64,000 nt of DNA. Source: Pseudomonas sp. Q11 (GTDB lineage: Bacteria; Pseudomonadota; Gammaproteobacteria; Pseudomonadales; Pseudomonadaceae). Below are positions 28,370-44,154 of the stretch, one piece after another. How positions within the stretch are numbered: position 1 is the stretch's first letter; the number at the start of each line of letters is the position of its first letter. Location of the stretch: NCBI RefSeq assembly GCF_024494355.1, contig NZ_JAKNQY010000011.1, positions 62,001 through 126,000 on the forward strand, read 5' to 3'. Under the pieces are notes generated by a model. That model worked only from the letters and a program-made list of their open reading frames with translations. It did not search any database and was not told the DNA's origin. The position numbers and the translations under genes are program-made.

Positions 28370-30175
28370 ATGCCTGACTACAAGGCCCCCTTGCGTGATA
28401 TTCGCTTCGTTCGTGACGAACTGCTTGGCTATGAAGCGCATTATCAGAGCCTTCCGGCTTGCCAGGACGCCACTCCAGATATGGTTGACGCCATTCTCGA
28501 AGAAGGCGCCAAGTTTTGTGAGCAGGTGCTGGCGCCGCTGAACCGTGTGGGCGACATCGAAGGCTGCACCTGGAGCGAATCCGGTGTGAAGACCCCGACC
28601 GGTTTCAAGGAAGCCTACAAGCAATTCGTCGAAGGTGGCTGGCCAAGCCTGGCCCACGACGTGGAGCATGGCGGTCAAGGCTTGCCGGAGTCCCTGGGCC
28701 TGGCGGTCAGCGAGATGGTTGGCGAAGCCAACTGGTCGTGGGGCATGTACCCAGGCCTGTCCCATGGCGCGATGAACACCATTTCCGAGCACGGTACGCC
28801 CGAGCAGCAAGAGGCCTACCTGACCAAGCTGGTTTCCGGCGAATGGACCGGCACCATGTGCCTGACCGAGCCGCACTGCGGCACTGACCTGGGCATGCTG
28901 CGTACCAAAGCCGAGCCACAGGCCGACGGTTCGTACAAGGTCAGCGGCACCAAGATCTTCATTTCGGCCGGCGAACACGACATGGCCGACAACATCGTCC
29001 ATATCGTTCTGGCACGCCTGCCGGATGCTCCGGCCGGCACCAAAGGCATTTCGCTGTTCATCGTTCCCAAGTTCCTGCCTAACGCCGACGGCTCCATTGG
29101 TCAGCGCAATGCGGTGAGCTGCGGTTCGCTGGAACACAAAATGGGCATCCACGGCAACGCCACTTGCGTGATGAACTTCGACGCGGCCACCGGTTTCCTG
29201 ATCGGCCCGGCGAACAAAGGCTTGAACTGCATGTTCACCTTCATGAACACCGCACGCCTGGGCACCGCGTTGCAAGGTCTGGCCCACGCCGAAATCGGCT
29301 TCCAGGGTGGCCTGAAATACGCCCGCGACCGTCTGCAAATGCGTTCCCTGACCGGCCCGAAAGCGCCGGACAAGGCTGCCGACCCGATCATCGTGCACCC
29401 TGACGTGCGTCGCATGCTGCTGACCATGAAGGCCTTCGCCGAAGGTAACCGGGCGATGGTTTACTTCACCGCCAAGCAAGTGGACATCGTCAAATACGGC
29501 GTCGACGAAGAAGAGAAGAAAAAAGCCGATGCGCTGCTGGCGTTCATGACGCCGATCGCCAAGGCGTTCATGACTGAAGTCGGCTTCGAATCGGCCAACC
29601 ACGGCGTGCAGATCTATGGCGGTCACGGTTTCATCGCCGAGTGGGGCATGGAGCAGAACGTTCGCGACAGCCGCATTTCGATGCTGTACGAAGGCACCAC
29701 CGGCATCCAGGCCCTCGACCTGCTGGGCCGTAAAGTGCTGATGACCCAGGGCGAAGCGCTCAAGGGTTTCACCAAGATCGTCCACAAATTCTGCCAGGGC
29801 AACGAAGGCAACGAAGCGGTCAAAGAATTCGTAGAACCCCTGGCTGCGCTGAACAAGGAGTGGGGCGAGCTGACTATGAAGGTCGGTATGGCCGCCATGA
29901 AAGACCGCGAAGAAGTGGGCGCGGCCTCGGTGGATTACCTGATGTATTCCGGTTACGCCTGCCTGGCCTACTTCTGGGCTGACATGGCACGCCTGGCGGC
30001 GGAAAAACTCGCAGCCGGCACCACCGAAGAAGCCTTCTACACCGCCAAGCTGCAGACCGCGCGCTTCTACTTCCAGCGCATCCTGCCGCGCACTCGTACG
30101 CACGTGGCAACCATGCTGTCGGGCGCCAACAACCTGATGGATATGAAAGAAGAAGACTTCGCACTGGGTTACTAA
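28370..30175 (+). CDS. FadE-type acyl-CoA dehydrogenase (paralogue 1)
   Basis: A 601-residue acyl-CoA dehydrogenase of the long Pseudomonas type. It begins [20 protein letters not shown], has the FAD/substrate segments [12 protein letters not shown] and KISAG-type FISAGEHD (about 160-205), the central [21 protein letters not shown], and the catalytic glutamate in [19 protein letters not shown] (about residue 445). It introduces the first double bond in fatty acyl-CoA. Its position after the bio operon matches PA0506, reported as a fatty-acid dehydrogenase in P. aeruginosa. The upstream PsrA-like site supports fatty-acid control. Confidence 0.9.
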
Positions 30176-30471: not shown

Positions 30472-31797
30472 ATGCCATCTTTCATCAGTTGGGTCGGAGC
30501 TTTACCCTTGTCGCGTTCTTCCGCCGTACGTTGGAGTCACTTTCTACCCTCGCTGCTGTTATTACTGGCGGGGCTTGCGGCTGCCTACGTCAAAGACCTC
30601 AACGTCTTTTTCACCTCTCTGTTCAACGTTCTTCCTACACTGGTGTTGTTGCTGGGCGGTGCGTATTGCGCCGTTTACCGACGCCAGCGTGAGCTGTTTC
30701 TGATGGTCACGGTGTATATCGCTTACTACCTGTTGGACACCCAGACCGACTTCTACCGTGACAACGGTAAGGTGCGCGAGGACGCAGCAGTGGTATTCCA
30801 CCTCGTCTGCCTGTTGCTGCCGTTGTTGTTTGGCCTGTTCGCCGCGTGGCAGGAGAGAACCCATTTGTTCCAGGACATGGTGGCGCGGTTCGCGGTGCTG
30901 CTGGTCTTTGGGAGCGTGGCGCTGGCCCTGGAGCAAAGCTTTCCCCAGGCGTTGCTGTTGTGGCTTTCGGAGATCCGCTGGCCTGCGTTGCACGGCGCCT
31001 GGATGAGCCTGATCCAGTTGTCCTACCCGGTTTTCATCGCAGCCTTCCTGTTGCTGGCCTGGCAATACTGGCGCCACCCGCGACCGTTGCATGCCGCGCA
31101 ATTGGTGGGTTTGCTCGGGGTGTTCTGGATGTTACCGAAGACTTTCATCCTGCCGTTTACCCTGAACATCATGTGCAGCCAGGTGATGCTGATGATCGCG
31201 GCCGCGGTCGCCCATGAGGCTTATCAAATGGCGTTCCGTGACGAACTGACCGGCCTGCCGGGGCGTCGGGCGCTGAATGAGCGCATGCAGCGCCTGGGTC
31301 GCAATTATGTATTGGCGATGAGCGACGTGGACCATTTCAAGAAATTCAACGACACCCACGGCCATGACGTGGGTGACCAGGTACTGCGGCTGGTCGCCAG
31401 CAAACTGTCGAAAATCAGCGGTGGCGGTAGGGCCTATCGCTACGGTGGAGAGGAGTTCGCGCTGGTATTTGCAGGCAAAACCATCGAAGAGTGCATGCCT
31501 CATCTGGAAGTCATTCGCGAATCCATCGCGAATTACAGCATTCAGCTACGCAATCCCGACAGTCGTCCCCAGGATGATCAACAAGGTCGCCAGCGTCGTG
31601 CCGGTGCCGGGGCATCCTGTGTATCGGTGACGGTCAGCATCGGCGTGGCCGAACGCATCGAACAGCGCACCCCTGAAGAAGTCCTCAAGTCCGCCGACCA
31701 GGCCCTTTACAACGCCAAGGGGGCTGGGCGTAACTGTGTGATTGCCTATGGGCAGAACCGTCGCGGCGCGGTGCGCATGGAAGTTGCCGCGGGTTGA
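30472..31797 (+). CDS. Membrane-bound diguanylate cyclase (GGDEF)
   Basis: A 441-residue protein with about seven hydrophobic helices (residues 25-245) and a C-terminal GGDEF domain (about 255-430). The active-site loop is YRYGGEEFALVF (GGEEF, residues 325-329) and the metal Asp is in AMSDVDHFKKFND, so it should make c-di-GMP from two GTP. The residues at the usual RxxD inhibitory site are SGGG, so product inhibition through that site is not expected. It sits between two acyl-CoA dehydrogenase genes and upstream of RsmX, with its own 296-base gap. The signal sensed by the membrane part is unknown. The ATG chosen has only a weak ribosome site. Confidence 0.9.
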   Translation: MPSFISWVGALPLSRSSAVRWSHFLPSLLLLLAGLAAAYVKDLNVFFTSLFNVLPTLVLLLGGAYCAVYRRQRELFLMVTVYIAYYLLDTQTDFYRDNGKVREDAAVVFHLVCLLLPLLFGLFAAWQERTHLFQDMVARFAVLLVFGSVALALEQSFPQALLLWLSEIRWPALHGAWMSLIQLSYPVFIAAFLLLAWQYWRHPRPLHAAQLVGLLGVFWMLPKTFILPFTLNIMCSQVMLMIAAAVAHEAYQMAFRDELTGLPGRRALNERMQRLGRNYVLAMSDVDHFKKFNDTHGHDVGDQVLRLVASKLSKISGGGRAYRYGGEEFALVFAGKTIEECMPHLEVIRESIANYSIQLRNPDSRPQDDQQGRQRRAGAGASCVSVTVSIGVAERIEQRTPEEVLKSADQALYNAKGAGRNCVIAYGQNRRGAVRMEVAAG

Positions 31798-31888
31798 GTG
31801 ATGACGGCGCATTCAGCGTCTGGACTGTGATTGTGGGCCTCGGTGGCCGGCAGTAGGTTTGAACGACCTGTTACCGGAGAAGACCACC

Positions 31889-33685
31889 ATGCCCGAGTAC
31901 AAAGCCCCGTTGCGCGACATGCGCTTTTTGATCGACCACGTCTTCGATTTCCCTGGCCGTTATGCCGAACTGGGCGCCGACGATGCCAGCCCGGACATGG
32001 TCAGCGCGATCCTCGAGGAAGGCGCCAGGTTCTGTGAGAATGTGCTGGCGCCGCTCAATCGCTCCGGTGACGAAGAAGGCTGCCATTTCGACAGCGGCGT
32101 GGTCACAACGCCTGCAGGCTTCAAGCAGGCGTTCGCACAATACGTGGAGGGCGGCTGGCACGGGCTGGCGGCGGACCCGGCTTACGGCGGCCAAGGATTG
32201 CCCAGTTCCCTGGGCCTGGTCATCAGCGAAATGGTCGGCTCCAGCAACACCTCCTGGGGCATGTACCCAGGCCTGACCCATGGTGCGATGTCGGCCATTC
32301 ATGCCCACGGCACCGAAGACCAGAAACAGGCCTACCTCACCAAGCTCACGGCCGGTCAGTGGACCGGCACGATGTGTCTCACCGAGGCCCATTGCGGCAC
32401 GGACCTGGGCATCATCAAGACCCGCGCCTTGCCTCAGGCCGACGGCAGCTACGCGATTACCGGCAGCAAGATTTTCATTTCCGCCGGCGAGCACGACATG
32501 AGCGACAACATCATTCACTTGGTGCTCGCCAAACTGCCGGATGCCCCTGCCGGGACCAAAGGTATCTCGCTGTTCATCGTGCCCAAATTCCTGCCAGACG
32601 CCAGTGGCGAAGCGGGACCGCGCAATGGTGTCTCCTGCGGCTCGATCGAGCACAAAATGGGCATCAAGGCGTCCGCCACCTGCGTGCTGAATTTCGACGG
32701 GGCCAAGGGATTCTTGATCGGCGAGCCGAACAAGGGCCTGAACTGCATGTTCACCATGATGAACCATGCCCGGCTGGGCACCGGCATGCAGGGCCTGTGC
32801 CTCGGTGAAGCAAGCTTCCAGGGTGCGATCAAATATGCCAGCGACCGTTTGCAGATGCGCTCGCTGACCGGTCCCAAGGCGCCGGAAAAAGCCGCCGATC
32901 CGATCATCGTCCATCCCGATGTGCGTCGGATGTTGCTGACCATGAAAGCCTTCAACGAGGGCAACCGGGCGCTGACTTACTTCACCGCGCAACTCTTGGA
33001 TATCGCACACCTGAGCAGCGACGAAACCGCCCGCCAGGAGGCCGAAGACCTGCTGGCGTTCCTCACTCCCATCTGCAAGGCTTTCATGACCGACACGGGG
33101 TTGGAGGTGACCAACCACGGCATGCAAGTGTTTGGCGGCCATGGCTTCATACGTGAATGGGGCATGGAACAACTGGTGCGAGACTGTCGCATTGCGCCGA
33201 TCTACGAAGGCACCAATGGTATCCAGGCCTTGGATCTATTGGGGCGCAAGGTGCTGGGCAGCCAGGGCAAGTTGCTGCGAGGGTTCACCAAAATCGTCCA
33301 CAAATTCTGCGCTGCAAATGCCGATCACCCACAACTCAAGTCCTATATCGCGCAACTCGATGAACTGAACCGGCAATGGGGCGAGCTCACTACCCAGGTC
33401 GGCATGGCAGCCATGAAGAACCCCGATGAAGTCGGCGCCGCTTCGGTGGACTATTTGATGTACAGCGGCTACATCATCCTGGCCTATCTGTGGTTGCGCA
33501 TGGCGTTGGTGGCCCAGGCGCAACTTGACGCAGGCGAAGGTGACGCAGGTTTCTGTCGGGGCAAACTGGTGACCTGTGAGTTTTACTTCAAGCGGCTGCT
33601 GCCAAGGACTGCAGCCCATCGGGCTGCTGTTGAGGCGGGGAGCGATTGCTTGATGAAGCTGCCAGCGGAGTTGTTTGCCCTCTGA
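31889..33685 (+). CDS. FadE-type acyl-CoA dehydrogenase (paralogue 2)
   Basis: A 598-residue paralogue of the genes at 28370 and 33904. It starts MPEYKAPLRDMRFLIDHVFD with GGAGAAG upstream, carries CLTEAHCGTDLG and [12 protein letters not shown], and places the catalytic glutamate in [19 protein letters not shown]. It differs from paralogue 1 in having an Ala for Pro in the TE-x-HCG motif. It follows the diguanylate cyclase by about 90 bases and may be read from the same transcript. Chain-length preference cannot be told from sequence. Confidence 0.9.
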   Translation: MPEYKAPLRDMRFLIDHVFDFPGRYAELGADDASPDMVSAILEEGARFCENVLAPLNRSGDEEGCHFDSGVVTTPAGFKQAFAQYVEGGWHGLAADPAYGGQGLPSSLGLVISEMVGSSNTSWGMYPGLTHGAMSAIHAHGTEDQKQAYLTKLTAGQWTGTMCLTEAHCGTDLGIIKTRALPQADGSYAITGSKIFISAGEHDMSDNIIHLVLAKLPDAPAGTKGISLFIVPKFLPDASGEAGPRNGVSCGSIEHKMGIKASATCVLNFDGAKGFLIGEPNKGLNCMFTMMNHARLGTGMQGLCLGEASFQGAIKYASDRLQMRSLTGPKAPEKAADPIIVHPDVRRMLLTMKAFNEGNRALTYFTAQLLDIAHLSSDETARQEAEDLLAFLTPICKAFMTDTGLEVTNHGMQVFGGHGFIREWGMEQLVRDCRIAPIYEGTNGIQALDLLGRKVLGSQGKLLRGFTKIVHKFCAANADHPQLKSYIAQLDELNRQWGELTTQVGMAAMKNPDEVGAASVDYLMYSGYIILAYLWLRMALVAQAQLDAGEGDAGFCRGKLVTCEFYFKRLLPRTAAHRAAVEAGSDCLMKLPAELFAL

Positions 33686-33772: not shown

Positions 33773-33903
33773 CCGTGATGACTAAAAATAACAAAGCAGT
33801 CACCGGATGACCCTATGTGTCGCAAAAGTTGTTGAGGTACACTCAGACCACTGCAAAAACCGTTTTCTTACGAACCAATTGTTTAGATCCTGCGAGGTTT
33901 GCC

Positions 33904-35682
33904 ATGGCTGACTACAAAGCGCCCCTGCGCGATATGCGCTTCGTCCTCAATGAAGTGTTCGAGGTCGCGAAACTCTGGGCTCAACTGCCGGCGCTGGCCG
34001 AGACCGTAGACGCTGAAACCGTCGAGGCGATCCTTGAGGAAGCCGGCAAAGTCACCAGCAAAAGCGTCGCCCCCCTCAGCCGCGCAGCTGACGAAGAAGG
34101 TTGCCACTGGGCTGACGGTGCCGTCACCACGCCAGCCGGTTTCCCTCAGGCCTACAAGACTTACGCTGAAGGCGGCTGGGTCGGTGTCGGTGGTGATCCG
34201 ACCTACGGCGGCATGGGCATGCCCAAGGCTGTTTCGGCCCAGGTCGAAGAAATGGTCAACTCCGCCAGCCTGTCCTTCGGCCTGTACCCCATGCTGACCG
34301 CCGGGGCTTGCCTGTCGATCAATGCCCACGCCAGTGAAGAGCTGAAAGCCGCCTACCTGCCGAACATGTACGCCGGCGTCTGGGCCGGCTCCATGTGCCT
34401 GACCGAGCCGCATGCCGGTACGGACCTGGGCATCATTCGCACCAAGGCCGAACCTCAGGCCGACGGCTCCTATAAGGTCAGCGGCACCAAGATATTCATT
34501 ACTGGCGGCGAACACGATCTCACCGAAAACATCATTCACCTGGTGCTGGCGAAGTTGCCGGATGCGCCAGCAGGCCCGAAAGGCATTTCGTTGTTCCTGG
34601 TGCCCAAGTTCATGGTCAATGCCGACGGCAGCCTGGGTGCGCGTAACGCGGCCAATTGCGGGTCGATCGAACACAAGATGGGCATCCAGGCATCCGCCAC
34701 CTGTGTGATGAACTTCGACGAAGCCGCGGGTTACCTGGTCGGCGAGCCGAACAAAGGCCTGGCGGCGATGTTCACCATGATGAACTACGAGCGTCTTGGG
34801 GTGGGTATCCAGGGCCTGGCCACCGGTGAGCGCTCCTACCAGAACGCCATTGAATACGCCCGTGACCGCCTGCAAAGCCGTTCGCCAACCGGTGCACAGA
34901 ACAAAGACAAAGTCGCTGACCCGATCATCGTCCACCCGGACGTGCGTCGGATGTTGCTGACCATGAAAGCGTCGAACGAGGGCGGCCGGGCATTTTCCAC
35001 CTACGTGGCGATGCAACTGGACACCGCCAAGTTCAGCGAAGACCCGGCCACCCGCAAGCGTGCAGAAGATCTGGTGGCCTTGCTGACACCTGTGGCGAAG
35101 GCCTTCCTGACCGATTTGGGGCTGGAAACCACTGTCCATGGCCAGCAGGTTTTCGGCGGTCACGGTTACATTCGCGAATGGGGCCAGGAGCAACTGGTGC
35201 GTGACGTGCGCATCACCCAGATCTACGAAGGCACCAACGGTATCCAGGCGCTGGACTTGGTGGGGCGTAAGATCGTCGGCAGCGGCGGGGCGTTCTACAA
35301 ACTGTTCACTGACGAAATTCGCCACTTCACCGCTACCGCGAGCAGCGATCTGGCGGAGTTCACCAAGCCGCTGAACGATGCTGTCGGTACGTTGGATGAG
35401 CTGACCGAATGGCTGCTGGACCGATCGAAAAGCAACCCGAACGAAATCGGTGCGGCCTCCGTGGAATATCTCCAGGCGTTTGGCTACACCGCCTATGCTT
35501 ATATGTGGGCGCTGATGGCCAAGGCTGCTTTGGGCAAAGAAGCCCAGGATGATTTCTATGCGAGCAAACTGGGTACGGCACGGTTCTACTTCGCCCGCTT
35601 GCTGCCGCGTATTCACTCTCTGAGTGCTTCGGTGAAAGCGGGTAGCGAGTCGCTGTTCCTGTTGGAGCCTGAGCAGTTCTAA
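33904..35682 (+). CDS. FadE-type acyl-CoA dehydrogenase (paralogue 3)
   Basis: A 592-residue acyl-CoA dehydrogenase starting [20 protein letters not shown], with GCGAGG before the ATG. Key segments are CLTEPHAGTDLG (an Ala replaces the Cys found in the other two), FITGGEHDLTEN, and the catalytic glutamate in QIYEGTNGIQALDLVGRKI. It matches the position of PA0508 in P. aeruginosa, reported as a second FadE. A GAACCAATTGTTT stretch upstream only loosely resembles a PsrA site. A GacA box starts 13 bases past the stop. Confidence 0.9.
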   Translation: MADYKAPLRDMRFVLNEVFEVAKLWAQLPALAETVDAETVEAILEEAGKVTSKSVAPLSRAADEEGCHWADGAVTTPAGFPQAYKTYAEGGWVGVGGDPTYGGMGMPKAVSAQVEEMVNSASLSFGLYPMLTAGACLSINAHASEELKAAYLPNMYAGVWAGSMCLTEPHAGTDLGIIRTKAEPQADGSYKVSGTKIFITGGEHDLTENIIHLVLAKLPDAPAGPKGISLFLVPKFMVNADGSLGARNAANCGSIEHKMGIQASATCVMNFDEAAGYLVGEPNKGLAAMFTMMNYERLGVGIQGLATGERSYQNAIEYARDRLQSRSPTGAQNKDKVADPIIVHPDVRRMLLTMKASNEGGRAFSTYVAMQLDTAKFSEDPATRKRAEDLVALLTPVAKAFLTDLGLETTVHGQQVFGGHGYIREWGQEQLVRDVRITQIYEGTNGIQALDLVGRKIVGSGGAFYKLFTDEIRHFTATASSDLAEFTKPLNDAVGTLDELTEWLLDRSKSNPNEIGAASVEYLQAFGYTAYAYMWALMAKAALGKEAQDDFYASKLGTARFYFARLLPRIHSLSASVKAGSESLFLLEPEQF

Positions 35683-35694
35683 AAACTGATGTTG

Positions 35695-35712
35695 TGTAAG
35701 CAAACGCTTACA
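35695..35712. promoter_or_regulatory. GacA box (upstream activating sequence of rsmX)
   Basis: TGTAAGCAAACGCTTACA is a perfect 18-base palindrome matching the GacA consensus TGTAAG-N6-CTTACA. Its centre is about 65 bases before the predicted RsmX start, the spacing seen for rsmX/Y/Z genes. A -10-like TAATCT lies at 35758-35763. Confidence 0.93.
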
Positions 35713-35768
35713 CAACGTACTGGCGTTTTCCCTCTATCGGCAGATTGGATCCAGGGCTAATCTACTTC

Positions 35769-35892
35769 ACATGGACGTCGCGCAGGATGCGCAAAGCAAA
35801 AACACGGACACGTAGGATTCTGCCAGGATGGCGGAGTGAAATGGATGTCAGGGAAACAGTCTGCAAAGCCCCGCTTCGGCGGGGTTTTCTTT
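35769..35892 (+). ncRNA. rsmX: RsmX small regulatory RNA
   Basis: About 120 bases with eight GGA motifs, several exposed in hairpin loops: GCGCA-GGA-TGCGC (35780-35792) and GCCA-GGA-TGGC (35822-35832) are perfect stems with GGA loops. It ends in the strong hairpin CCCCGC-TTCG-GCGGGG (35869-35884) and a T-rich tail. Such RNAs titrate RsmA/RsmE (CsrA family) and free mRNAs for secondary metabolism, exoenzymes and biofilm traits. The GacA box upstream puts it under GacS/GacA. The exact 5' end is estimated from the promoter. Confidence 0.92.
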
Positions 35893-36014
35893 TGTCCGCG
35901 TTTTTATCTTCCCGCGCTTCCTCCCTCCTGGACTGCTTCTCACTGAACCCTGACGAGCGGTCAGGTGTCCATGAGCTATATGGCAATGTGGCCATCGCCA
36001 ATCAGGAGTCATCC

Positions 36015-36173
36015 ATGGATATCATTCGAATCATCATCGCCATCCTACTGCCGCCGTTGGGTGTGTTTCTGCAAGTGGGCTTCGGCGGGGCATTCTGGCT
36101 CAACATCCTGCTGACTCTATTGGGTTATATCCCGGGTATCGTGCATGCGGTGTACATCATCGCCAAGCGCTGA
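36015..36173 (+). CDS. YqaE/Pmp3-family small membrane protein (52 aa)
   Basis: A 52-residue protein with two hydrophobic helices: MDIIRIIIAILLPPLGVFLQ and LNILLTLLGYIPGIVHAVYI, with the PPLGVFLQVGFGGAFWLNI linker and GYIPGIVHA typical of the Pmp3/UPF0057 family, ending in a short basic tail (AKR). GGAG lies just before the ATG. Homologues are stress-induced and affect membrane potential in yeast and plants; the bacterial role is unclear. It lies 123 bases after RsmX and probably has its own promoter. Confidence 0.93.
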   Translation: MDIIRIIIAILLPPLGVFLQVGFGGAFWLNILLTLLGYIPGIVHAVYIIAKR

Positions 36174-36197
36174 ATTTGTTGGTTTGCACAAATCCCC

Positions 36198-36288
36198 TGT
36201 GGGAGCGAGCCTGCTCGCGATAGCAGTAGATCCAGTCAAAATCTCCATGGACTGATCCACCGTTGTAGCGAGCAGGCTCGCTCCCACA
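36198..36288. repeat. Paired REP element
   Basis: CTGTGGGAGCGAGCCTGCTC and inverted GCGAGCAGGCTCGCTCCCAC between the Pmp3 gene and the converging S9 peptidase gene. Confidence 0.9.
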
Positions 36289-36306: not shown

Positions 36307-38139
36307 CTATAGGGGGCCATCCATCACCCTGCGATAGAACAACCATTCATGCTCCAGCGCATGAGCCTGGTTGATCGCCTTGCGAAAGCCATGGCGCTCA
36401 TCGACGTAGTAATGCGCTTCTACCGCGATGCCGTTGTTCTGCAATGCCTCGACCATATCGCGTGTCTGCTGCGGCACGACCACGGCATCCAGTTCACCCT
36501 GGAAAAATATCACCGGTGCGCGGATCTGGTCAGCGTGCAGCAGCGGTGTGCGGTCGCGGTAGCGTTCGGCGTCCTGTTGCGGGTCGCCGATCAGCCAATC
36601 CAGATAGTCGCCTTCGAATTTATGCGTGGCATGGGCCAGGGCGACGGGGTCGCTGACGCCATAGAGGCTGGCGCCGGCACGGAACACGTCATGGAACGCG
36701 AGGGCGCAAAGAGTCGTGTAGCCTCCTGCACTGCCGCCACGAATGAACGCGCCACGACCATCGATCAAGCCTTGCTCTTCAAGGTGCGTGACCACTGCGC
36801 AGGCATCCTCGACATCTACCACGCCCCAGTTCAAATACAGCGCCTGTCGATAGGCCCGGCCATAACCGCTGCTGCCGCGGTAATTGAGATCGGCCACGGC
36901 AAAGCCGCGCTGGGTCCAATACTGGATGCGCGGATCAAAGATGGGATAACACGCCGAGGTCGGTCCGCCATGGATGAACACCACCAGTGGCGGTTTTTCT
37001 TCGGCGTTCATGGCCGGGGGATAAAAGAACCCATGGGCTTGGCTGGAAGCCGAGGGATAGCACAGGGTTCGGGGGCGGCTGATGTGTTCGACGGGTAACG
37101 GGGCGACGCCCCCGGCCAGCGCCACCACTTTATGGTTTTGCCGATCAATGGCGATTACCGCCGACGGGCTGACGGGCGAGGCAGCGATGGCATAAATGAA
37201 CCGCTCATCCAGTGCCAGGCTGCGAAAACGCGTGTAAGTACCGGTGAAATCTTCGTATCCGCCGCCACTGCGGCAAAGACCCAGTCGCCCGAATCCCGCC
37301 TCGGTCCAGCTCGCCAGGTATTCGCGCTCGCCCACCGGCAGCCACGTACAGCCGCCCAGTTGCCATGGCGCAGGGGCGTGATCGGCTTCGGCGGCGGGCA
37401 GCGGCTCCAGGCCGTCGGCGGATTCAATCAAGGGTTGCCAATAACCGCCACGATCGCTCAGGCAATAGAGGCGACTGCAATGATCAAAACGCGGTTGCTG
37501 AATGGACTCCTCGTGCCCGCTGCCCGCTATGCAACGTGGCTCGCTCCAGGGGCCAGCGTTGCGTTCGGCCAGCATCAGTCTCGTTGACGTCCACGGTTGA
37601 TGGGGGCGGCTCCACTCCACCCAGGCCAGCCGTCGACCATCAGGGCTCAAGGTCGGCGTGGCGTAGAAGTCCGCACCTTCGGCCAGCAGATGCCGCTGAT
37701 GATCCGCCAACCCGATCGAGACCAGGCGATGCTGATTGGCCTGCTCCTCCACTGCCAGCACCTGGCCGCAAGCGAAGTGAAGATCGCCATATCGACAATC
37801 CCCCGAGGTCAGCGCCACGGGCTGTTCGCTGGCCAGCGACTGGTGATACACCTGCTGGTCGGCCTCATTGACGAACAGCACACCGTCGTCGCTCAGGCAG
37901 AACGATCCGCCGCCGTATTCATAAACCCGGCTGCGCGCACTGAGCCCGTCCGGGGTCAGGCATCGGGCTTTGGCATCCTGCCAGTGCCAGATCCGGCAGG
38001 TACCGTCTTCGGGACGGTATTCATTCCAGAACAGTCCAAGGGGCCCGGCCTGCAGCTCAGCGAAGTCGATGCCTGCCGCAACGGCCTGGGTGGCGCTGAA
38101 AGGCTCAGCCTTTAGCGATGAGGCGTGAGTTTCGTTCAT
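36307..38139 (-). CDS. S9-family prolyl oligopeptidase-like peptidase of the PQQ cluster
   Basis: A 610-residue protein with an N-terminal beta-propeller (to about residue 340) and a C-terminal alpha/beta-hydrolase domain. The catalytic Ser is in [14 protein letters not shown], the Asp in [12 protein letters not shown] and the His in DERHGFRKA. It is the last gene of the PQQ cluster; this position is occupied in P. fluorescens by a gene named pqqM or pqqG, suggested to help digest PqqA-derived peptide. The start is not settled: the ATG used gives [15 protein letters not shown] and overlaps pqqE by 35 bases, while another ATG is 12 codons earlier. A role in PQQ synthesis is inferred from position. 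Confidence 0.88.
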
Positions 38140-39274
38140 TGCGAAAGGCCAGTTGTTCAATGGTTTGCGTGGCATGCTCGGCGTCTTCCCGAGCCTTAAG
38201 AATCATCCCGTGATGCTCGGATTTGCTGCACACCGGGTCGGCATTGCTCGCGTCGCCCGTGAGCATGAACGCCTGGCAGCGACAGCCGCCGAAGTCCTTT
38301 TCTTTTTCATCACACGAGCGGCACGGCTCGGGCATCCAGTCATAGCCACGGAAGCGATTGAAGCCGAACGAGTCGTACCAGATGTGCTGCATGCTGTGGT
38401 CGCGCACATTGGGAAATTGCACGGGCATCTGACGGGCGCCGTGACAGGGCAATGCAGTACCGTCCGGTGTGACGGTCAGGAAAATGCTGCCCCAGCCGTT
38501 CATGCAGGCCTTGGGGCGTTCTTCATAATAGTCCGGGGTGACGAAGATCAACTTGCACGGATGCCCTTGGGCTTGCAGCTTGGCGCGGTATTCGTTGGTG
38601 ACACGTTCGGCGCGCACCAGTTGTTCCCGGGTGGGCAGCAAGCCGACGCGGTTGAGCTGCGCCCAGCCATAGAACTGGCAGGTGGCGAGTTCGACGAAGT
38701 CGGCTTCAAGGGCGATGCACAGCTCGATAATGCGGTCGATCTTGTCGATGTTGTGCCGATGGGTGACGAAGTTCAGCACCATCGGATAGCCGTGGGCCTT
38801 GACCGCCCGGGCCATTTCCAGTTTTTGCGCGAAGGCTTTCTTCGAGCCGGCCAGCAGGTTGTTCACCTGCTCGTCGCTGGCCTGGAAACTGATCTGGATG
38901 TGGTCGAGGCCGGCGTTTTTGAAATCGCTGATTTTCTGCTCGGTCAAGCCGATGCCAGAGGTGATCAGGTTGGTGTAGAAACCCAGCCTGCGCGCCTCGG
39001 CGATCAGTTCGGCCAGGTCCTGGCGCACCAGCGGCTCGCCGCCGGAGAAGCCCAATTGCGCGGCGCCCATCTCACGAGCTTCGCGAAACACCTTGAACCA
39101 CTGCTCGGTACTCAGCTCCTTGCCCTGTTCGGCGAAGTCCAGCGGATTGGAGCAGTACGGGCATTGCAACGGGCAACGGTAGGTCAGCTCGGCCAGCAAC
39201 CACAGCGGCAGGCCGACTTCAGGCTTGGGCGGCAGGCCCGTGACTTCAGGCAAGTTCGATCCAATGCTCTGCAC
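38105..39274 (-). CDS. pqqE: PqqA peptide cyclase (radical SAM) PqqE
   Basis: A 389-residue radical SAM/SPASM enzyme joining the Glu and Tyr side chains of PqqA. The SAM-cluster motif is CPLQCPYC (Cys 34, 38, 41). The C-terminal auxiliary-cluster region has [27 protein letters not shown] and further Cys. I chose the GTG at 39274 because GGAGGT lies six bases upstream and it gives the family-like [12 protein letters not shown] leader; the longer frame would overlap pqqD by over 120 bases. It overlaps pqqD by 29 bases. Confidence 0.95.
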
Positions 39275-39521
39275 GGGCGACCTCCATGAATTGCTCGATG
39301 TCGTCACCGAGTTCCGGCACGTCGGGGAACTGCTTCTCCAATTCACCGATGATGGCCGCGACATCCCGTTCACCATCGATCAGGCCGCCAATCAGCGAGG
39401 CGCTGTCGTTGAGCTTGATCATGCCTTCAGGATAGAGCAGCACGTGGCCCTTCTGTGCCGGCTCGTACTGAAAGCGATAGCCGGGGCGCCAGCGTGGGGT
39501 CTTGCTGCGGTCGAAACTCAT
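39246..39521 (-). CDS. pqqD: PQQ biosynthesis peptide chaperone PqqD
   Basis: A 91-residue protein, the usual length, starting [20 protein letters not shown]. It binds the PqqA peptide and presents it to PqqE. The segments [20 protein letters not shown] and [15 protein letters not shown] are typical. Its ATG overlaps the pqqC stop by four bases, and GGAA precedes it. Confidence 0.96.
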
Positions 39522-40270
39522 AAGGTAATTCCTTTGTGCCACACCCGTTGCCCGGTCACGCTGTGATAGGGCGGGCGGTTCAATTCGTAGGCCATGCTCA
39601 TGGCATCGAGCATGCTCCAGAGGATATCCAGTTTGAACTGGAGAATCTCCAGCATGCGCTCCTGGCCTTCGCGGGTGGTGTAATGCTGCAAGGTAATCGC
39701 CAGGCCATGCTCCACGTCACGCCGGGCCTGGCCCAGGCGGGTGCGGAAGTATTCGTAGCCGGCGGGGTCGATCCAGGGGTAATGCTGCGGCCAGCTGTCC
39801 AGGCGCGACTGATGGATCTGCGGTGCGAACATTTCGGTCAGGGAGCTGCTGGCGGCCTCCTGCCAACTGGCCCGGCGGGCGAAGTTGACGTAGGCATCCA
39901 CCGCGAAGCGCACGCCCGGCAGCACCAGTTCCTGGGAGCGCAGTTGATCGGGATCCAGCCCCACCGCCTGACCCAGCCGCAGCCAGGCTTTGATGCCGCC
40001 GTCTTCACCGGGCGCGCCGTCATGGTCGAGCAGGCGCTGGATCCACTCGCGGCGGATTTCCCGGTCCGGGCAGTTGGCCAGGATCGCGGCATCCTTGAGC
40101 GGGATGTTCACCTGATAGTAAAAACGGTTCGCGACCCAGCCCTGGATCTGCTCGCGAGTGGCGCGCCCCTCATACATCGCCACGTGATACGGGTGGTGGA
40201 TGTGGTAATACGCGCCTTTGGCACGCAGGGCCGCTTCGAACTCGGCGGGGGACAGGGGGGTGTCAGTCAT
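39518..40270 (-). CDS. pqqC: Pyrroloquinoline-quinone synthase PqqC
   Basis: A 250-residue all-helical oxidase carrying out the last ring closure and eight-electron oxidation to PQQ without a metal. Family-typical stretches are [36 protein letters not shown], and the C-terminal [22 protein letters not shown] precedes the ATG. It is separated from pqqB by 213 bases with a REP pair, but couples tightly to pqqD. Confidence 0.97.
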
Positions 40271-40320
40271 TTTGGGTTCTCCGGGAAATGCCCGTGGGTT
40301 CTGTGGCGTCAGGGCTGGCC

Positions 40321-40415
40321 CCATCGCGAGCAGGCTCGCTCCCACACTGGTTTTGCTGTGAGTCAGATATCCAATGCGACTCGAACTACTGTGGGAGCGA
40401 GCCTGCTCGCGATAG
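40321..40415. repeat. Paired REP element inside the pqq operon
   Basis: CCATCGCGAGCAGGCTCGCT and inverted AGCGAGCCTGCTCGCGATAG between pqqB and pqqC. It could set the relative level of pqqAB against pqqCDE transcripts. Confidence 0.92.
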
Positions 40416-40483
40416 CATCCTTTCAGGCATCATCAACCTGGCTAACACACCGCAAGCTCAACCCCACATTGGTTCCGCCCGTC

Positions 40484-41395
40484 CTACAACTCAATACTCA
40501 TTCCGTCGTAGGCCACTTCAATCTTTCGACGTACAAGCTCGGCCCGCTCGGGTGAATCTTCGTCGAGGATCGGGTTGGTATTGTTGATATGAATAAGGAC
40601 TTTGCGCGGCTCGGGCAGTTGCTCCAGCACTTCGATCATCCCGCCAGGCCCGTTCTGTGCCAGATGGCCCATCTCCCGGCCGGTGCGGGTGCCGACGCCA
40701 CGACGCTGCATTTCATCGTCGTCCCACATCGTGCCGTCCACCAACAGGCAATCACTGCCGGCCATGATCTCCAGCAGCGGTCCGTCGACCTTGCCCAGGC
40801 CCGGGGCGTAAAACAGCTTGCCGCCAGTGCGCAGGTCTTCGACGATCAGGCCGATGTTGTCGCCCGGGTGCGGGTCGAAGCGGTGCGGTGAATAGGGCGG
40901 GGCGGCGCTACGCAGGGGCAGTGGGGTGAAGCGCAGGTTCGGACAGGCGGCGATGGTGAAGCTTTGGTCGAGTTCGATGCGGTTCCAGCTCAGCCCGCCG
41001 TTCCAGTGGGTCAGCATGTTGAACAGCGGAAAACCCGTGCTCAGGTCTTCATGGACCATGTCGGTGCACCAGACTTGATGCGGGCAGCCTTCGCGCAGGC
41101 TGAGCAGGCCGGTGGTGTGGTCGATCTGGCTGTCCATCAAAATGATGGCGCCGATACCGGTATCCCGCAGTGCCCGGCCCGGTTGCATCGGGGCGAACCC
41201 TTGGAGCTGGGCGCGAATGTCCGGGGAGGCGTTGCACAGCACCCAGTTCACACCGTCATCGGAAATCGCGATGGACGACTGGGTACGTGCCTGGGCCCGC
41301 AGGCTGCCGTTGCGAAAACCTGCGCAATTGGCGCAGTTGCAATTCCACTGGGGGAAACCGCCGCCGGCGGCGGATCCTAGAATCTGGACAAACAT
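40484..41395 (-). CDS. pqqB: PQQ biosynthesis hydroxylase PqqB
   Basis: A 303-residue metallo-beta-lactamase-fold protein starting [19 protein letters not shown], with the Cys-rich [10 protein letters not shown] loop near residue 25 and the central [18 protein letters not shown]. PqqB hydroxylates the cross-linked Glu-Tyr intermediate and has also been linked to PQQ export. Its start follows pqqA after an attenuator-like hairpin. Confidence 0.96.
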
Positions 41396-41420
41396 GGCCG
41401 CTCCATCTGCAAACCGAAAT

Positions 41421-41448
41421 AAAAAACGCCCCGGCTGGCCGAGGCGTT
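41421..41448 (-). terminator. Attenuator-like hairpin between pqqA and pqqB
   Basis: On the minus strand AACGCCTCGG, loop CCAG, CCGGGGCGTT form a 10-base stem (one T-G pair) followed by a T run. It lies 29 bases past the pqqA stop, so much pqqA mRNA should end here, giving more PqqA peptide than enzymes. Confidence 0.88.
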
Positions 41449-41476
41449 GTGCTGCGCGTTTAACCGCCTGCAGCAA

Positions 41477-41551
41477 TCAACGGCTGGCGAAGTACATGGT
41501 GACTTCGAAACCGATACGCAGGTCGATATATGCGGGTTTGGACCAGGACAT
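41477..41551 (-). CDS. pqqA: PQQ precursor peptide PqqA (24 aa)
   Basis: A 24-residue peptide beginning [12 protein letters not shown] and ending FASR. Glu16 and Tyr20, spaced E-x-x-x-Y in the segment EVTMY, are the residues fused into PQQ. The start ATG has AAGGAG seven bases upstream. It is followed by the attenuator hairpin and then pqqB. Confidence 0.97.
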
Positions 41552-41592
41552 GGGAATACTCCTTTGGTTGGGGGGATTGGGGTCGATGGAAC

Positions 41593-41630
41593 GGTGGAGA
41601 CCTATACATATAGTCCACCTCCGTTCGGAG
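41593..41630 (-). promoter_or_regulatory. Adjacent palindromes in the pqqA promoter region
   Basis: GGTGGA (41593-41598) and TCCACC (41614-41619) enclose the palindrome CTATACATATAG (41602-41613); directly beyond is the perfect hairpin CTCCGTTCGGAG (41619-41630). They lie 42-79 bases before the pqqA ATG. Either a regulator-binding site or a leader hairpin is possible. Confidence 0.4.
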
Positions 41631-41733
41631 ATGTTCAGATGCTTAGGCGCCTATGTTACTAAATCTGACAAATTCGTTCGCTGCGATTCTCGAAGAAAGC
41701 TCATTACAGCGACTGCAATGATCGCTTCTCCGC

Positions 41734-44154
41734 TTACCAGTGTTCTGGCGCGCAGCCGCCGTTGCTCAGGCAATACCATCCCCCTTGCGCATCGATCAAA
41801 CTCTGGGCGGCTGCTTCTAGCTGGGCGCGGTCCAGGCACAGGATGGCAGCGGCGAGTTGTTCAAGGTGATCCGACGAGCGGCCGGCCAGCTTGCCCTGCC
41901 AGAGCAGTTCGGCGGCCTGGGCGAAGGGCAGGGCACTGCTCTGGAGCTGGGCAGCGAGGGCCTGCTGCTGGCCGGTCAGGGATGAATCATCGAGCTGCTG
42001 GATCAGCGCCGGTAACGCAGCCAGAAATTGCTCGATGTGGGCGATCAGTTGTGTTGCCGAAAGGCTGGGCGATTGGACACCGAACAACACCCCGGTTTGT
42101 CCATCGATCTGCTTCAACCCACTGAACACCGCATAACCCAACTGCAACTCGACGCGCAGGCGCTGGTAGAACGGCGTCTGGCACAGTTGTGCCAGCCAGC
42201 GCCAGGCGGCTTCGTCGGCCAGCGCCAGGGTGGCCGTCGGGCAAAACAGCAACACGGCCGCTTCTTCGCCGTGGGTCTGGAGCGTATGCCAGATGCGTTG
42301 CCCGCGCGGTGCCGCCGTCAGGCTGACGTCCTCGCCGGCATTGCCCGGTACGCGGGCCAGCACCGGGCCAAGCGCCCCTTGGGTGGCGGCCGACAAACCG
42401 ATGGACAGCCCGTCCCAGCGAGCCGTTGTCCACATGTTTTGATCGCTGTCGGGCAGTGGCAGCGCTGGTGATTGCCGGCAATGATCCGGCAACACCTTCA
42501 ACAGCTGTCGAATCGCCATCGATGGGGTTTCGTCACCGGCCTGGGCCATTGGCAGCGGTTGGGCAAGCTTCGCCAGAACGTGTTCGAGCACCAACGGGAT
42601 CGGTGCCTGCAAGCCGACCAGTTTCAGCAGGCATTGATGGCCGCAGGGTTCGAAACTGACCTCCACGCCGGCCTGCCGAGCCTCTTCGCGCACATCCTCC
42701 AAGTGTCGGTCGAGCCTGGATTGAACGTCGAGCGGTGCCTGGGTCGTCAGTTGCCAGCGCAGGTAAACCGCGCCTTCACGGCCGTTGTCTGGCAGCGCCT
42801 GGCTGAACTGCATGGGCGAGCGTTCCCGTCGGCCCCGGGAGCGGTCCTGGGCGAAGGTTCGCAAGCCGCGATGGGCACTGGTCTGGCCGCGTATCAGCCC
42901 GGCGCGAGGCGCTTCGCTGGGTGTTTGCAGGAACGGGTTGGGCGCGGGCAGTTGCCAGGGTTCCACGACGTTATTGGCAGGATTCAGTTGCTTGAGGATT
43001 TCCCTGAGCCTCACGAGGTCGTTTGCCAGCAGCGGCGTGTCACGTCCTTCGCAGTCCCAGCGGGCCAACTGCAAGGCCGATCCTGTCTCCTGCCGACGTT
43101 GCAACAACGCGGTGAACTCCTGGCGCAACGGTGCCCAGTCGTTTTGGGCGGCAAAGAATCCCAGCCAGTCGTGCAGCAACGGTTGGATATGCGCCGCTGC
43201 CTGAGCGTTGCTGTGCTTGAATTCGATGTGCAGCAGTGCCTGTCCGGCATATTCATACAGCGCGGTGGCCTTGAGGCTGTCAGCCAGGCCGCGCTGACGC
43301 AACGTGGCGAGCAGGCCGCCCGGTTTGCTGGAGTTCAGCCACGTACAGAGAAAATCCAGGGCTTGGGGCGAGGCGGCTGGCAACGCTTCGAAGGCGAACA
43401 GCAGGTCGAAACAACCTTCGTGGGCCTGTTGATAACGGGTCTGGGACGACGCCATCAGTTTTGGCGGTGCCGGTCTGGCAACCGCTTCACCGGTCGGTAC
43501 ATGGTTGCTGAACTGTTCCGCCAGCGTTTTCAAGGCATCGATGCTTTGCGGGCCGGTCAGGCTCAGGGCCATCTGGCGGCTTTGGTAGAAATGGCGATAG
43601 AAGTCGTGCAATGCGGTTTGGAATGCTGCGTGCTCCACCGCGAGACTGTCGCGATTGCCGGCGTGAAAACCCCGCAGCGGGTGGGACGCTGACACTCCGC
43701 CGTACAAGGCAAGCTGTCGCTGGGCGGCCGCATCCTGGGACCAGGCGATGAATTCTGCGTGCAGCACTTCGCGTTCCCGCAACTGATCAGCTTCATCCAG
43801 ACGTGGCTGGGCGAGCATGTCCCACAGCCGTTCCAGCCCGTCGACGAAGGTTGCGGGAGGCAGTTCGAAGAAAAAATCCGTGGTGCGTTCACTGGTGCGC
43901 GCATTGACCTGACCGCCGTGCCGCTGTACGTAGGCCATCAGGTTCTCCCCGGCGGGAAACCGTTCGGTGCCGAGGAAGAACAGATGTTCGAGCAAGTGCG
44001 CCATGCCCGGCCAGGCCAGAGGGGCATCATGGCTGCCAGCGGCGACGCGCAGTACCGCGGCGCTGCGCTTGAGGCCCGGGACATGACGCAAGGTCACCCG
44101 CAAGCCGTTGGCCAGGATTTCAGTGTGGGGGCGGAGGGAGTCGGGGACCGGCAT
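41734..44154 (-). CDS. pqqF: PQQ biosynthesis zinc peptidase PqqF (M16 family)
   Basis: An 806-residue insulinase-like M16 peptidase. The inverted zinc motif is HLLEH in GMAHLLEHLFFLGTE (about residues 50-64), with the distal Glu about 75 residues later (VLHAEFIAW). The full two-domain M16 architecture is present. It cuts the processed PqqA product out of its peptide. It is upstream of pqqA with a 182-base gap, so pqqA has its own promoter, giving the Pseudomonas order pqqFABCDE plus the S9 peptidase. Confidence 0.95.
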   Translation of the reverse strand: MPVPDSLRPHTEILANGLRVTLRHVPGLKRSAAVLRVAAGSHDAPLAWPGMAHLLEHLFFLGTERFPAGENLMAYVQRHGGQVNARTSERTTDFFFELPPATFVDGLERLWDMLAQPRLDEADQLREREVLHAEFIAWSQDAAAQRQLALYGGVSASHPLRGFHAGNRDSLAVEHAAFQTALHDFYRHFYQSRQMALSLTGPQSIDALKTLAEQFSNHVPTGEAVARPAPPKLMASSQTRYQQAHEGCFDLLFAFEALPAASPQALDFLCTWLNSSKPGGLLATLRQRGLADSLKATALYEYAGQALLHIEFKHSNAQAAAHIQPLLHDWLGFFAAQNDWAPLRQEFTALLQRRQETGSALQLARWDCEGRDTPLLANDLVRLREILKQLNPANNVVEPWQLPAPNPFLQTPSEAPRAGLIRGQTSAHRGLRTFAQDRSRGRRERSPMQFSQALPDNGREGAVYLRWQLTTQAPLDVQSRLDRHLEDVREEARQAGVEVSFEPCGHQCLLKLVGLQAPIPLVLEHVLAKLAQPLPMAQAGDETPSMAIRQLLKVLPDHCRQSPALPLPDSDQNMWTTARWDGLSIGLSAATQGALGPVLARVPGNAGEDVSLTAAPRGQRIWHTLQTHGEEAAVLLFCPTATLALADEAAWRWLAQLCQTPFYQRLRVELQLGYAVFSGLKQIDGQTGVLFGVQSPSLSATQLIAHIEQFLAALPALIQQLDDSSLTGQQQALAAQLQSSALPFAQAAELLWQGKLAGRSSDHLEQLAAAILCLDRAQLEAAAQSLIDAQGGWYCLSNGGCAPEHW

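Follow-up and report, generated by a model that had tools for sequence, protein, structure and literature searches.

The window analysed here is a 64,000-nucleotide stretch of contig NZ_JAKNQY010000011.1 of Pseudomonas sp. Q11, and the locus of interest lies at the end of a block of acyl-CoA dehydrogenase genes on its plus strand. The block comprises three such genes assigned through Pfam, of which the first (28370-30175) is 66.3% identical to the second (31859-33685) and the second 56.7% identical to the third, a fadE-type gene at 33817-35682 that carries PF12806, PF00441, PF02770 and PF02771. Inside the block, at a conserved position, is a plus-strand gene for a GGDEF diguanylate cyclase (30472-31797; PF00990, 105.4 bits), and 3,974 bases separate its end from the start of a downstream small RNA at 35771-35888 (plus strand; predicted transcript about 118 nt). 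The third fadE reading frame stops 12 bases ahead of TGTAAGCAAACGCTTACA at 35695-35712, a GacA box whose centre lies about 67 nt ahead of the RNA start. A first-pass annotation had reported an 18-base perfect GacA palindrome just 3' of the third dehydrogenase, eight GGA motifs in an RNA of about 120 bases and a strong terminator, and all of these are present. The eight GGA motifs of 35771-35888 begin at 35773, 35785, 35806, 35815, 35826, 35833, 35843 and 35852, and a stem with a U tract, recognized by a terminator scan and in the fold of the RNA, forms a terminator-like element at 35865-35888. Folding of 35771-35893 gives -44.3 kcal/mol (z -2.78), with 4 of 200 shuffles equally stable. Ahead of the RNA start, TAATCT at 35758-35763 is the likely -10 region, as suggested by a tabulation of promoter-end forms for 118 loci, in which the hexamer recurs in 13 of the 15 most frequent. 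A sigma-70 consensus scan of 35500-36250 returned no promoter match, which is expectable for an activator-dependent promoter.

The covariance model of RsmY (Rfam RF00195) scores 125.2 bits at 35771-35888 on the plus strand (cut-off 57, E 7.3e-30) and is covered end to end, from position 1 to 121 of 121. On sequence grounds the element is almost certainly the genome's one rsmY gene, encoding a GacA-controlled small RNA that would titrate RsmA/RsmE; the repeated GGA motifs and the intrinsic terminator of that family occur together within it. The first-pass annotation had the kind of element right, a GacA-box RNA of the RsmA-titrating type with every sequence feature where it was placed, and the covariance search with the Rsm families that it proposed does yield a match over the cut-off at the site. 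Its name for the element, RsmX, is wrong. An RsmX copy here is exceedingly improbable: the layout of box, GGA repeats and terminator is alike in both families and the RF02144 and RF00195 models weakly match each other's members, but RF00195 scores above RF02144 at the site, the rsmX model finds nothing there at E 0.001 and a single place on another contig in the whole genome, and the genome's own rsmX carries the box TATAGC-N6-CTTACA, with a left half that is degenerate as judged by eye. The PrrB/RsmZ model (RF00166) likewise gave no match at the site, its sole match in the genome lying elsewhere.

Across the 6.19 Mb genome (99 contigs) RF00195 exceeds its cut-off at one place only. A second match, of 37.1 bits and below the cut-off, coincides with the rsmX locus, and a search for additional RsmY copies over the cut-off came back empty. 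The rsmX gene (G000:C20:2461-2572, RF02144, 103.5 bits) and the rsmZ gene (G000:C17:3351-3484, minus strand, RF00166, 129.9 bits) are on contigs other than that of rsmY. The earlier guess that extra rsmX copies may exist elsewhere comes down to one each of rsmX, rsmY and rsmZ over the cut-offs in this genome. The genome search also found three CsrA/RsmA-family genes over the cut-off and one UvrY/GacA-type response regulator (317.5 against 280 bits), with 74 further matches below.

The box is distinctive within the genome. With up to one mismatch, TGTAAG-N6-CTTACA occurs at a single place in the 99 contigs, 35695-35712, whereas the reversed pattern, used as a control, gives four matches per strand. 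A loose box alone means little, because 0.66 chance matches per window are expected when two mismatches are allowed. Its recurrence in the genus was sampled in 119 genomes, including that of Pseudomonas sp. Q11. RF00195 matches in all 119 and exceeds its cut-off in 117; one genome with a weak match (G014, E 1.2e-6) was left out, and 118 rsmY loci were read. A box within two mismatches precedes the RNA in 118 of 118 (85 perfect, 30 with one mismatch and 3 with two), and its centre is 65-67 nt ahead of the RNA in 117 and 113 nt ahead in one, so that the box at 35695-35712 stands at the conserved upstream spacing.

Studied orthologues suggest how the locus would operate in Pseudomonas sp. Q11. 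By analogy with them, phosphorylated GacA would bind the box at 35695-35712 and activate transcription from about 35771, the 118-nt RNA would end at the terminator at 35865-35888, and its GGA motifs would sequester RsmA/RsmE-type proteins and so free target mRNAs; for this strain all three, transcription, its dependence on GacA and the binding of RsmA, are predicted on that basis. The closest described counterpart is rsmY of P. fluorescens SS101, for which PMC4353343 gives a predicted length of 118 bp, eight GGA motifs, an 18-bp box and significant downregulation in gacS and gacA mutants. The gene described here shares the length, the motif number and the box, along with the full-length RF00195 match and the terminator of the family; the outer bases of the box dyad, GTTG/CAAC here, are the one difference found. 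RsmX and PrrB/RsmZ, encoded at other loci in the genome, are likewise GacA-controlled sponges of RsmA/RsmE according to PMC7366521. In itself the gene is of an already known kind, an ordinary rsmY that had been misnamed, with a standard promoter and an inherited neighbourhood.

That neighbourhood had been taken as a sign of shared evolution of lipid use, c-di-GMP and Gac signalling, but the arrangement is common in the genus. An acyl-CoA dehydrogenase gene lies upstream of rsmY on the same strand in 104 of the 118 loci, its best match being the window's third fadE in 103 and the first in one, and no such gene is present in the stretch read (1.5 kb for 31 loci, 2.5 kb for 87) in the other 14. 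Fewer than 200 nt separate the fadE stop from the box in 99 loci, as in the window, and fewer than 20 nt in 83 of these; the distance exceeds 800 nt in five. A second collection, obtained by scanning named genomes for an RsmY core pattern (at least 118 stretches, 80 with names), extends the view further upstream. Among the matches listed, 36 loci extend 5.4 kb or more upstream. The block includes the GGDEF gene in 33 of them, the order being fadE1-GGDEF-fadE2-fadE3 in 18, GGDEF-fadE2-fadE3 in 11 (some of these stretches end before fadE1) and fadE1-GGDEF-fadE3 in 4; of the other three, one has fadE1-fadE3 only and two have none of these genes. The third fadE adjoins rsmY in 101 of the 109 listed loci with at least 400 bases upstream, and the eight listed without it include P. 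indoloxydans (L070) and P. alcaliphila (L081). One stretch carrying the core pattern comes from a 3.8-kb contig titled Mycobacterium sp. (L059, JAKJHY010000102.1), which is probably Pseudomonas contamination of that assembly. The organization of rsmY genes in several strains is described in the legend to figure 1B of PMC4353343.

As judged from these sequences, rsmY behind fadE is an inherited gene order common across most of the genus. The persistence of the GGDEF gene in the block could be read as a sign that lipid use, c-di-GMP and Gac signalling are functionally coupled, but vertical inheritance of gene order gives the same neighbourhood, so the link is not evidence of shared regulation, and the 14 genus loci that keep rsmY with no such fadE in the stretch read argue against it; we regard the coupling as very unlikely. 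Shared regulation of fadE, the GGDEF gene and rsmY was considered and set aside, there being nothing in its favour beyond gene order.

What may be a new detail is that the outer arms of the rsmY GacA box covary. The dyad is longer than the 18-mer and spans 35691-35716, with 11-base arms around the 4-base spacer AAAC; as RNA it would form a hairpin just 3' of the fadE stop. A first reading, which we hold tentatively and short of an even chance, is that the box also acts as RNA, its arms pairing into a hairpin located at the fadE mRNA 3' end or close to it. Consistent with this, the 88-nt spacer in the window has a predicted folding energy of -26.6 kcal/mol (z -3.45), and the extension is concentrated where the box closely follows fadE. 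At least four outer pairs in a row, allowing G-T, are found in 43 of the 83 tight rsmY loci (fadE stop less than 20 nt from the box), against none of the 16 loci with a gap of 20-200 nt, 4 of the 19 far or unlinked loci, 1 of 28 rsmX boxes (one copy per genome over the cut-off, two of them having their best box in an atypical position) and 3 of 30 rsmZ boxes (30 of 41 matches). The rsmX box centre is mostly 64-66 nt ahead of the model start (26 of 28) and that of rsmZ 179-182 nt (29 of 30), and both show little extended dyad. The right half is degenerate (CCTAGT) in a few rsmZ boxes, and many have a further GTAAG or TGTAA half-site a few bases downstream; L260, L268, L004 and L272 illustrate these features.

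The hairpin is favoured further by the way the arms change. Of the 66 distinct flank pairs from the 83 tight loci, 50 have a Watson-Crick match at outer pair 2 (26.9 in shuffles) and 38 at pair 3 (25.7 in shuffles); pairs 1 (36 against 28.0) and 4 (48 against 44.9) are weaker, both with p 0.0095, and pairs 5-8 are not above shuffles in this set. The letters at pair 2 are diverse, with CG in 38, UA in 9, AU in 6, GC in 5 and UG in 5. In 74 distinct 38-base rows the pair counter, whose shuffle-type control is inflated by the relatedness of the sequences, counts 45 double-changed cells where shuffles give 16.4 (0 of 500 shuffles) and returns a covariation score of 0.363, compared with 0.202. When the partner is shifted by 1-3 columns, 10-16 such cells are left. 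In the same rows neither the number of pairs changed on both sides (185 of 500) nor that of further pair types (25 of 500) is clearly above shuffles.

On a tree built from fadE coding ends, left and right positions change on the same branch nine times at pair 2 (3.35 expected) and eight times at pair 3 (2.47 expected); a standard pair results in six and seven of these cases, respectively. Five of the six at pair 2 pass from one standard pair to another and one starts unpaired; at pair 3 three pass from pair to pair and four start unpaired, and these changes that begin unpaired weigh against a hairpin. Co-change alone is partly a long-branch effect, because the mismatched control of left 3 with right 2 also co-changes nine times (3.62 expected), although it leaves a pair just once. 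Pair 1, with three same-branch changes against 1.46 expected, all from pair to pair, is not significant, and pairs 4-6 have no same-branch change that leaves a pair on this tree. A second, partly independent set agrees at pairs 2 and 3. It was drawn, among the matches listed, from 113 of the 118 loci of the named-genome collection at any distance from fadE (five with too little upstream sequence were dropped), and removal of 26 with a 50-base stretch in common with the first set left 87, 65 of them distinct, although species may overlap. With G-T allowed, 55 of the 65 form pair 2 (compared with 46.8) and 37 form pair 3 (compared with 30.4), both with p 0.001; pair 6 reaches p 0.036, and pairs 1, 4 and 5 are not significant among the 65.

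Loci with wider gaps supply a related observation. In 11 of the 12 loci, out of the 16, with a gap of 58-164 nt, a separate hairpin of -22 kcal/mol or lower lies ahead of the box, and nine of these are equalled by at most 1 of 50 shuffles, which again favours a structure near the fadE 3' end; the other two are unexceptional (5 and 11 of 50), and the twelfth locus has no strong hairpin. Against the hairpin, four outer pairs are missing from 40 of the 83 tight loci, and many of these 40 are tree neighbours; the pattern is incomplete and differs between clades. On the tree, the four-pair state changes 18 times and the tight/wide split only twice, and the contrast between the tight and wider-gap groups accordingly amounts to nearly one evolutionary event. 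Also against it, the terminator scan of the window finds no U tract or terminator at the dyad on the plus strand, and among the tight loci the scan calls an intrinsic terminator after the fadE stop and ahead of the RNA in 7 of 83 (none in 76) and ahead of the box in 0 of 83, compared with 83 of 83 within rsmY itself; one precedes the box in 3 of the 16 loci with a gap of 20-200 nt. Read on the minus strand, 35691-35716 gives the dyad followed by ATCAGTTTTT and scores as terminator-like, and the element might limit antisense transcription into fadE. Minus-strand terminators were called at the dyads of 2 of 83 relatives by a less sensitive scan that detects the rsmY terminator in just 54 of 83.

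Alternatively, the outer arms could lengthen the DNA site bound by GacA, or by some other dimeric regulator, which we consider rather less likely than not. In favour of this, conservation of the right flank TGACGTGCTG is strong, dimers touch both halves of a dyad, and a weak trend towards extension exists at rsmZ boxes (p 0.064 at pair 3 and 0.051 at pair 6). This trend and the extension in some far rsmY loci would equally be given by a role at the DNA level, and to that extent count against the hairpin. However, the arms stay paired while their letters change at pair 2, which sequence-specific recognition does not need, and this is not seen at rsmX boxes.

Returning to the hairpin, our hypothesis of a double use of the GacA box goes further. 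In many fadE-linked pseudomonads the element could serve as a GacA box in DNA and as a hairpin near the fadE 3' end in RNA, with read-through from fadE carrying RsmY as a 3' tail to the RsmY terminator and supplying a GacA-independent trickle of RsmA sponge tied to fatty-acid gene expression. We think this combined scheme unlikely as a whole. If the hairpin is real, a transcription-factor box would be under a second, RNA-level constraint. The rsmY gene of P. aeruginosa presumably adjoins dnr and is not behind fadE, so read-through from fadE could not explain residual expression in that species. Such residual transcription in P. aeruginosa lacking GacA is described in PMC7911923, and a real hairpin would give a testable explanation for some of the GacA-independent rsmY expression. 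In a non-exhaustive search of titles and opening lines of abstracts on rsmY context, promoter, read-through, and terminator and box, we found no mention of a hairpin role for the box.

Downstream of rsmY, a gene for a 52-residue membrane peptide of the Pmp3 family (36015-36173; PF01679) follows directly, and its frame is open backwards through rsmY to 35745, probably by chance. An inverted repeat of GTGGGAGCGAGCCTGCTCGC type, noted by eye at 36199-36288, is one that we take to be a REP-like pair. Beyond it, on the minus strand, 36307-44154 encodes an S9 peptidase and further open reading frames pointing towards rsmY, which from their translations we presume to be pqqE, pqqC, pqqB and a pqqF-type protease.
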